From assembly GCF_001536285.1 (NCBI RefSeq), contig NZ_FAOZ01000033.1, positions 1-64,000 on the forward strand: a stretch of DNA of 64,000 bases. The letters run 5' to 3'. A program made the translations under genes and the position numbers. This document shows positions 58,785 through 61,985 of the stretch, in pieces. The notes under the pieces were generated by a model, which worked only from the letters and a program-made list of their open reading frames with translations, was not told where the DNA came from and did no database searches. This stretch comes from Parafrankia irregularis. GTDB taxonomy: Bacteria; Actinomycetota; Actinomycetes; Frankiales; Frankiaceae. The stretch's first letter is position 1; each line of letters starts with the position of its first letter.

Positions 58785-60236
58785 TTGGCTCCGAAGGACG
58801 CAACGCCGCCGCGGGACGACTTCCCGGTTCGGGTTCATGACCTGCTGCGGGAACGCGCGGTGTGGGTGCTGCCGCTGATCCTGGCCTCGGTCGTCGTCTC
58901 GGCGATGACCGCGCTGTACCTCGCGTCGGCGGTCGACCCCCTCGGCCATGTGCGTGGCCTGCCGGTCGAGGTGGTCAACAACGACCGCGGCGCCACGCTG
59001 GGAGCAGAGCACCTCGACATCGGTGCGCGTATCGAGGCCGGTCTGCGGACGAGCCCGGAGGTGTCCCGCCGGCTACGGCTGGAATCCGTCACCCTGCCGG
59101 AGGCAGAACGGGCCATGAGCCGCGGGCGGGCCTACGCGACCGTGGTGATCCCGCCCGGCTTCACCGCCTCGCTCCTGGCCCAGGCCGGCCTGCCGGCAGC
59201 TGGGGCGTCGGGGGGCGCGGCTGCCCAGGCAGGAGACCGATCGGTCCAACTGCTGACCAACCCGCGGGCCAGCACGCTCGGAGTGAGCCTGGCCAGCGGT
59301 GTCCTGCAGCCCGCCCTCGCCGCCGCCTCCCGGACGATCAGTGCTCAGCTCACCGCGGCGGCCGACACGACGGCCGGGGCCTCGACCGGCGCCGGAAGCG
59401 CGACGACCGGCGGTGCGGCGACTGAGGGCGCGGGCGCTGGCGGCGCGGCGACGCAGGCGTTCCTGGCGAACCCGGTCACGGTCACCACCAGCCAGTTCCA
59501 CCCTCCGCCCGCGAACAGCGCGCTCGGCCTGAGTGCCTTCTACCTGGCCCTGCTGACCCTCATGTGTGGATTCCTCGTCGGGACCCTCCTGCATTCCACG
59601 GTGGACGCAGCCCTCGGCTACGGCACCTCCGAGGTCGGCCCCCGCTGGACCCAGCTCCAGCCGAAGGCGATCAGCCGCTGGCGAACCCTGCTGATCAAAT
59701 GGGTGATGGCGGCGGCGTTGACCGCGGTCGTCACCGGCCTGATGATCGCGATCGGAGCCGGCGCGGTGGGCATGGACGCCCCGCATCCGCTGCTGTTGTG
59801 GGCCTTCTCCTGGCTGTGCGCGGCCAGTGTCGCCGCCGGGACGATCGTGCTCTTCGCGGCGCTCGGCACCCCCGGGCAGCTGGTCGCGCTCCTGCTGTTC
59901 GTCTACGCCGGTCTGGCCTCGGCCGGTGGAACCGTGCCCATCGAAGCGCTGCCCGGCTTCTTCCGGCTGCTCAGCGAGGCCGAGCCGCTGCGGCAGATCC
60001 TCGCCGGCGACCGGGCCATCCTGTACTTCGACGCCCAGGCCGACACGGGCCTGACCCGCGGAGCCGTGTCCGCCGTGATCGGGCTGCTCTGCTGGCTCGC
60101 CCTGGGCGCACTGATCGTCCGCTGGTACGACCGCCGAGCGCTGCACCGGATGAACCCGGAACTCCTCACCTACGTCAACCGCGCCGTCCAGGAATATCGG
60201 GCCCAAGACCAGGCCACAGAAGCCCACGGACCGTAA
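58785..60236 (+). CDS. YhgE/Pip-like ABC-2-type membrane protein (DUF3533-like)
   Basis: The protein has 483 residues. The TTG start at 58785 has only a weak ribosome-binding site. An N-terminal TM helix (VWVLPLILASVVVSAMTALYLASAV) is followed by an extracellular domain (~50-240, VEVVNNDRGATLG, YATVVIPPGFTASLL), and about five more helices at the C-terminus (YLALLTLMCGFLVGTLL ... GLLCWLALGALIV). The domain order matches the YhgE/Pip and Snq2-like group, which are envelope proteins of unknown transport function. A fragment of the extracellular-domain coding DNA is duplicated at 61851-61985. Confidence 0.87.
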   Translation: MAPKDATPPRDDFPVRVHDLLRERAVWVLPLILASVVVSAMTALYLASAVDPLGHVRGLPVEVVNNDRGATLGAEHLDIGARIEAGLRTSPEVSRRLRLESVTLPEAERAMSRGRAYATVVIPPGFTASLLAQAGLPAAGASGGAAAQAGDRSVQLLTNPRASTLGVSLASGVLQPALAAASRTISAQLTAAADTTAGASTGAGSATTGGAATEGAGAGGAATQAFLANPVTVTTSQFHPPPANSALGLSAFYLALLTLMCGFLVGTLLHSTVDAALGYGTSEVGPRWTQLQPKAISRWRTLLIKWVMAAALTAVVTGLMIAIGAGAVGMDAPHPLLLWAFSWLCAASVAAGTIVLFAALGTPGQLVALLLFVYAGLASAGGTVPIEALPGFFRLLSEAEPLRQILAGDRAILYFDAQADTGLTRGAVSAVIGLLCWLALGALIVRWYDRRALHRMNPELLTYVNRAVQEYRAQDQATEAHGP

Positions 60237-60502: not shown

Positions 60503-61480
60503 TCAGGGCAATCTCAGGGATGCGTTCCGTTGCCAGTCGTTGCCGGCCTTCCATACGACGCTGACGTCCACGGTGGAGCAAAGGTGTAGCAGGTCCGGGC
60601 GCGGTTTCGAGTCGACAAGAAGGACTAGACGCGGGGATGGATCTATGAAGCGTTGGTAGTCGAGGAGTTGGCCTATGCCCATGCGGATAGCCTCGCGTGT
60701 GCTGGTGCCTTTGGCTTCGATGAGCTCGCCGGCCGTCGCGTCATAGAGATCAGTGAACAGGGGTCGCATCTCGTTAGGCGGCACGATCTGCTTTCTGCAC
60801 ACCTCGTGACCGAGTGACCGAAGATGCTCGGCGTAGGACTGGACAAGCGCGGCCTCCCGACGGAAAGCGGTGGTCGGCTCCTCTGGGCCAATCATTCCGT
60901 ACTGCTCGGTATTCGACGCCTCTACCGGTATAGAGGTGACACGGCCGGCCGCAGTGGGGGTCGCAGGAAGGGGCGCGTCGAACGGCTGGACGGGTCCCTC
61001 AGGGCGTAGCCGGAACATGATGACCGTCCGAAGCGGCCCGCCGCCGGTCTCGGGGGCTTCGCTGGTATACCAGGGGCGGTCAGGGTCCACCTCGAACGGT
61101 CCCAGATACTCGACACCTTCTTGGACGGCACGGAAGAGGCGAAGGGTGCGGCCCTGCTCTCTGTGGCGCAAGATGGCCAGGTTTCCCTGGGTCATCTGCT
61201 GATCTCCGAGCTGTCCTTCCCCGGTGTAGTGGAAGCAGCCATCGTCGCCCCACCCATCGAAGTAGCCATGTGCCCTCCCTCGCTCCGGATTGACGAAGAT
61301 CAGAACGTTGGGCGTGGTCCGGGACGGACCGATACCGCCTTGTCTGCGACCGCCGTACCGCGCGTGGATGTCGCGCCGCATCGCGACCACCCCCGGCTGG
61401 ATCTCCCAGAACACGTCAGCGGTCTCGCGCACACCGGTGGCCTGCGCCGCCAAAGCGCTTAAAGCGTAATCGATATCCAC
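60503..61480 (-). CDS. Putative modification-dependent restriction enzyme (ScoMcrA-SRA-like + PD-(D/E)XK)
   Basis: GTG at 61480 gives 325 residues; the frame is open to 61600. Residues ~35-135 resemble the SRA-like base-flipping domain of ScoMcrA-type enzymes: RYGGRRQGGIGPSRTTPNVL, GYFDGWGDDGCFHYTGEGQLGDQ and MTQGNLAILRHREQGRTLRLF. The C-terminal part has a PD-(D/E)XK nuclease pattern: Asp244/Asp247 in TDLYD, Glu255-x-Lys257 in LIEAKG, and a QxxxY-type GQLLDY (Gln271). Such fusions cut DNA carrying modified bases; that activity is inference. It is flanked by a direct repeat formed by a YhgE-like gene fragment, suggesting recent acquisition. Confidence 0.82.
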   Translation of the reverse strand: MDIDYALSALAAQATGVRETADVFWEIQPGVVAMRRDIHARYGGRRQGGIGPSRTTPNVLIFVNPERGRAHGYFDGWGDDGCFHYTGEGQLGDQQMTQGNLAILRHREQGRTLRLFRAVQEGVEYLGPFEVDPDRPWYTSEAPETGGGPLRTVIMFRLRPEGPVQPFDAPLPATPTAAGRVTSIPVEASNTEQYGMIGPEEPTTAFRREAALVQSYAEHLRSLGHEVCRKQIVPPNEMRPLFTDLYDATAGELIEAKGTSTREAIRMGIGQLLDYQRFIDPSPRLVLLVDSKPRPDLLHLCSTVDVSVVWKAGNDWQRNASLRLP

Positions 61481-61850
61481 TGTGTAACCGTACGGCGCGT
61501 GCCCCTTGGTGTGATGCCTGGATGTCGCTACCGACGCACGAACAGACCTCTGTTTTGCAAAGTGGTTTCGGTTCGTCAGTCGACGTCCGCGCCCGTGCAC
61601 GGTGGGTGTTTGTTCCGATGCTGCCCATGATCGTCTGATCGCTTGGCTGCTCGAACCTAAACCTGCAGGTCAACGGCTCGACGTCGGGTTGGCCGGTCTC
61701 TGTCGAACCCGCTTACGCGAACATCGCCTCTCGTGCCACCCGCGAGATTGGCGAGTTCAGCATGATCGCGTCCAGGAGTTGTGGTGTATGGAGAGTGGCT
61801 CCGTGTGGAACCAGTCGCCCTTCCGGAGGTCGAACGGTCTACGTTCCCCG

Positions 61851-61985
61851 GCGGGCTTACGCGACCGCGGTGATCCCGCCCGGCTTCACCGCCTCGCTCC
61901 TGGCCCAGGCCGGCCCGCCGGCATCCGGGGGGTCGGAGGAGGCGGCGGTCCAGACAGAAGGGGCCGATCGGTCCAACTGCTGACC
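61851..61985 (+). pseudogene. Fragment of a YhgE/Pip-like gene, duplicated from 59126-59258
   Basis: About 133 bp match the middle of the upstream YhgE-like gene almost without gaps. The frame gives YATAVIPPGFTASLLAQAG, like the parent's YATVVIPPGFTASLLAQAG. Differences are mostly substitutions in the second half. Neither the 5' nor the 3' part of the gene is present. The identity is highest in the first ~70 bp. Confidence 0.85.

Follow-up and report, generated by a model that had tools for sequence, protein, structure and literature searches.

A compact SRA-PD-(D/E)XK protein of Parafrankia irregularis, a probable modified-cytosine-dependent restriction enzyme that has lost its sulfur-binding domain

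In this work, we are describing a 325-amino-acid protein encoded in a 64,000-nucleotide stretch of the Parafrankia irregularis genome (contig NZ_FAOZ01000033.1, hereafter the window), in which an SRA-like domain is followed by a PD-(D/E)XK nuclease. The protein is probably a single-gene modified-cytosine-dependent restriction endonuclease with an MspJI-like layout, which has shed its phosphorothioate sensor, the sulfur-binding domain (SBD). Absence of the SBD is a recent loss in the window copy, caused by one in-frame deletion, while the Frankiaceae relatives retain an SBD-SRA-PD-(D/E)XK arrangement. SBDs are reported to pair "almost exclusively" with HNH nucleases (PMC7470945), and no SBD-SRA-PD-(D/E)XK protein was found described in the open-access literature, so that this arrangement is apparently an undescribed reader-nuclease combination among modification-dependent restriction enzymes. 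The 325-aa window copy and a 90%-identical, 446-aa copy from a congener (G413) form a natural deletion pair, which lets one ask what the SBD contributes next to the SRA.

Gene and domain composition

Coordinates of the gene, its domains and the traces of the deletion are collected in Table 1. The open reading frame offers two candidate starts, GTG at 61600 and GTG at 61480, giving 365 and 325 aa, respectively. The longer version was rejected, because in several relatives the frame closes a few codons upstream of the conserved, downstream GTG, and the 325-residue frame of the preliminary description is a real gene, with that codon as its likely start. Searches of the protein against Pfam and NCBIfam returned no family above its cut-off; the Pfam SAD_SRA match remained below it (E 0.023). 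The gene had been described as lacking a methyltransferase or partner gene nearby, and a scan of the neighbouring ORFs revealed no methyltransferase, which is the arrangement of type IV restriction enzymes, where no cognate methyltransferase accompanies the nuclease.

Table 1. Features of the SRA-PD-(D/E)XK locus in the window
Feature	Position	Strand	Basis or remark
325-aa SRA-PD-(D/E)XK gene	60503..61480	minus	start is the GTG shared with relatives
PD-(D/E)XK nuclease, residues about 203-318 (D244, E255-A-K257, Q271xxxY275)	60527..60874	minus	AF2, fold alignment, conservation
SRA-like domain, residues 25-168	60977..61408	minus	structural alignment, Foldseek, phmmer
SBD-deletion scar	61445..61450	minus	4 nt (CGGC) stand where the homolog has 385 nt (L024 2807-2423)
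What is left of the original gene start (about the first 10 codons), with its upstream flank	61450..61563	minus	blastn, alignment

Upstream of the gene, a 190-bp stretch (61797-61985) is 83% identical to 59071-59258, a segment within the gene for a DUF3533/ABC-2 membrane protein (58785-60236), and this duplicate suggests a local rearrangement.

The ScoMcrA-type SRA-like pattern noticed earlier was confirmed by several comparisons. By sequence, the domain matches ScoMcrA (5zmn) with E 1.8e-4 in phmmer, the PADLOC mREase_IV model recognises the protein with E 7e-5, and a profile of the family run against PDB sequences recovers the ScoMcrA SRA with E 5.7e-8. In the predicted structure, residues 24-164 align to the same SRA with Z 13.6 and rmsd 2.8 A over 129 residues (VIA-align), the Foldseek match to 5zmn has E 3.7e-7, and a comparable score was obtained for the SRA of SUVH5 (3q0d, Z 13.4); the SRA domains of AspBHI and LpnPI gave Z 10.3-10.4. 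Likeness to the ScoMcrA SRA is above chance in both the sequence comparisons and the model, and ScoMcrA (SBD-SRA-HNH) has the closest SRA by both measures.

The C-terminal part of the protein folds in the AF2 model as PD-(D/E)XK with a conserved D/ExK, and no HNH nuclease is present. Mean pLDDT of the model is 83, with the nuclease block mostly at 79-96, the greater part of it at 95-96; pTM is 0.55, and the linker and N-terminal residues are of low confidence, so the model gives the folds and not the arrangement of the domains. Residues 178-320 align to Can2, AF1548, the XisH-like 2okf/2inb, Card1 and NucS/EndoMS with Z 8-9.7 (VIA-align). The D...ExK and QxxxY features reported earlier are real: D244, E255, K257, R262, R266 and Y275 are invariant in 20/20 homologs, down to 36% identity, and Q271 is retained in 17 of them. 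The fold check proposed in the preliminary description thus came out positive, AlphaFold and Foldseek backing both the SRA and the PD-(D/E)XK fold.

Over the whole chain, the top Foldseek match is MspJI (4f0p, E 1.8e-7, 384 columns), and for this reason the joining of SRA to PD-(D/E)XK, described earlier as a compact fusion, is not a new combination. It is the established layout of the MspJI family (MspJI, LpnPI, AspBHI, FspEI), enzymes which cleave the two DNA strands at a fixed distance from 5mC/5hmC and which likewise carry an N-terminal SRA-like domain and a C-terminal PD-(D/E)XK in a single chain. The window protein differs from them in being shorter (325 versus about 450 aa), in its EAK motif, where the literature table gives (D/E)..(D/E/Q)XK for MspJI (PMC3874153), and in its SRA, which sequence searches tie to ScoMcrA and not to MspJI. 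MspJI family members are absent from the PDB sequence matches at E up to 5, and MspJI is reached by fold alone.

Loss of the sulfur-binding domain

Homologs from Frankiaceae are 446-461 aa long and possess an additional N-terminal domain, which matches the SBD of SprMcrA (7cc9) with E 1.5e-10 in phmmer and, running on into the SRA, ScoMcrA (5zmn) with E 2e-8. This domain is unrecognised by Pfam and its identification relies on the phmmer matches to solved SBDs; in the AF2 model of a full-length relative the SBD blocks are at pLDDT 35-58 with no confident fold, and that model was therefore not used as SBD evidence. The sulfur pocket of SprMcrA is formed by Y31/Q32/Y78/P79/A82 (PMC7470945). Corresponding positions are H/Q/Y/P/A in the homologs L024, L025, L026 and L030, and S/E/F/P/A in L028/L029, so that the pocket is kept in the relatives except the latter two. 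The relatives thus share the SBD-SRA order with ScoMcrA and a matching SBD with SprMcrA (SBD-HNH). The window copy, in turn, departs from ScoMcrA by having PD-(D/E)XK instead of HNH and no SBD, from SprMcrA, which has HNH and no SRA, by lacking the SBD, and from phosphorothioate-dependent restriction enzymes in general by lacking the sulfur pocket of that domain.

Aligned at the DNA level with its 90%-identical congener, the window copy proves to have lost a net 381 nt with the frame preserved. The remnant of the original 5' end, together with its upstream flank, is 88% identical to the congener (blastn), but beyond the gene and some 115 nt of upstream sequence the window and the congener locus share no synteny. 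In the phylogenetic tree, the window copy is placed within the SBD-bearing clade (100/100) as a sister to the congener (100/99), and because of this nested position the domain was lost in the window copy and not gained by the others. The compact form without SBD is consequently not the design of the family, since the closest congener and other Frankiaceae copies carry the domain.

The deletion is present in one genome only, as would be seen if an error of assembly or sequencing had removed the SBD from what is really an SBD-SRA-PD-(D/E)XK gene. We regard this as highly improbable, because the junction is clean and without an N run, a search of the rest of the genome with an SBD profile is negative, and DNA identity to the nearest relative is about 90% on both sides of the junction with differences throughout, so that the window copy is not a chimera of the relative's sequence.

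The gene outside the deletion is under purifying selection, with dN/dS 0.146 relative to the 90%-identical homolog (298 codons) and 14 nonsynonymous versus 30 synonymous polarised changes on the window branch. These values also argue against a decaying remnant, that is, a young pseudogene or inactive protein crippled by the loss of the SBD, as do the in-frame character of the deletion, the lack of any later stop or frameshift, the full set of intact catalytic residues and the fact that outside Frankiaceae the form without SBD is the rule among homologs. Decay would agree with the deletion being private to the window copy, with the window branch being longer than its sister's in amino acids (0.068 versus 0.019) and with damage to other copies of the family, one being frameshifted (G402), one split (G418) and one replaced (G396). 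Taken together, we consider a decaying gene quite unlikely and favour a functional enzyme deprived of its SBD.

Proposed mechanism and target

The ScoMcrA-type SRA joined to PD-(D/E)XK, with neither HNH, SBD nor partner methyltransferase, makes the protein a putative restriction enzyme of the modification-dependent, type IV-like kind, which would cleave only modified DNA, in agreement with the preliminary description. With the MspJI mechanism as a model (PMC3874153), the SRA would most likely flip a modified cytosine out of DNA and the metal-dependent C-terminal nuclease (D244, E255, K257) would cut nearby, which could serve in defence. In the ancestral Frankiaceae enzyme the N-terminal SBD probably added phosphorothioate recognition, and because this domain was removed by the in-frame deletion, the window copy should now rely on the SRA alone. 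Partial removal of the SBD turns SprMcrA into a non-specific nickase; unlike the trimmed SprMcrA, the window protein retains an SRA, which may provide the specificity.

Circumstantial evidence favours 5mC/5hmC as the target. Within the Frankia genus g238, a C5-methyltransferase (PF00145) is found in 0/5 intact carriers of the gene (G399, G400, G403, G406, G407) versus 7/8 other genomes, one of the seven being the carrier with the frameshifted copy (G402); Fisher p is 0.005, with the carriers representing only about three independent lineages. In the P. irregularis genome itself, the sole PF00145 gene (L102:1409-2295, contig C39) is frameshifted just after PCQPFS and split between two frames. 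Across the class, the methyltransferase is present in 7/19 carriers versus 205/374 other genomes, a weak trend (one-sided p 0.097). Association with dndC is uninformative, as two of the 35 family genomes have this gene and neither is a carrier.

A further clue comes from genome G396, where both flanks of the locus keep the gene order of the carriers. Here the gene retains its SBD part but runs into a stop after about 19 residues of the SRA core, and in place of the SRA-nuclease part there is a cassette (L107:2668-6416) in which an intact C5-methyltransferase gene is accompanied by genes for an HNH and a Vsr-like protein, downstream of which the carrier synteny picks up again. An m5C cassette at the site of the missing part hints at what the enzyme attacks, and makes the notion of a conflict between type IV enzymes and host methylation directly testable.

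It is also conceivable, though unlikely, that the mark bound by the SRA-like pocket is not 5mC/5hmC but, for instance, a glucosylated base or another hypermodification of phage DNA. Which cytosine derivative is accepted is known to vary among the SRA-like domains of type IV enzymes (PMC7641849), ScoMcrA, having the closest SRA, prefers 5hmC DNA (PMC7461809), and the congener G413 is a counter-example to mutual exclusion, as it keeps the SBD-SRA-PD gene together with an apparently intact C5-methyltransferase. The replacement in G396 and the absence of C5-methyltransferases from the intact carriers of g238 speak against this reading. The "other base modifications" suggested in the preliminary description are thus not needed, since the methyltransferase distribution and the G396 locus point to 5-methylcytosine-type marks.

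For the Frankiaceae family as a whole, we tentatively suggest that one nuclease may read both backbone sulfur and modified cytosine, with the readers being shed singly as host DNA marks change: the window copy would have dropped its SBD, L028/L029 would show the domain with a degraded pocket, and in G396 an m5C system would have displaced the SRA-nuclease part.

Relatives and module combinations

Full-length homologs of the window protein are spread across Actinomycetes and occur on Streptomyces plasmids as well as in IMG/VR viral contigs, where there are many of them; one further homolog is gp63 of Gordonia phage Sidious. Viral scans with single proteins, the phage protein and that of L013, gave no matches. 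The Streptomyces/Kitasatospora plasmid homologs L037, L039 and L044-L048 form a clade without the ExK motif and are, on account of this loss, probably nuclease-dead. That the window copy is such a catalytically dead, plasmid-type relative was rejected, as its ExK is intact. Neighbours of some of the plasmid genes encode DUF4007, N-6 and cytosine methyltransferases, or PAPS reductase.

Both modules are found in other contexts. The SRA-like module is fused to HNH in L018, L040 and L084-L087, accompanied by EVE and a Shedu SduA C-terminal domain in L078, and present in a haloarchaeal AAA_5 protein (L038), the gene downstream of which has no assigned family. The PD-(D/E)XK module is joined to EVE and SRA in L066 and, in L017:1336-2577 (minus strand), is preceded in the same frame by a DNA-binding domain of the HU family (PF00216, E 2.6e-19).

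Two 479-aa proteins, L108:1809-3245 (G423) and L109:1106-2542 (G428), have a close SBD, a different middle region and a C-terminus which, judged by eye, is HNH-like. In the 480-aa protein encoded by L074:541-1980 (minus strand), the order is SRA, SBD-like stretch and PD-(D/E)XK, a second, differently ordered combination with a putative SBD.
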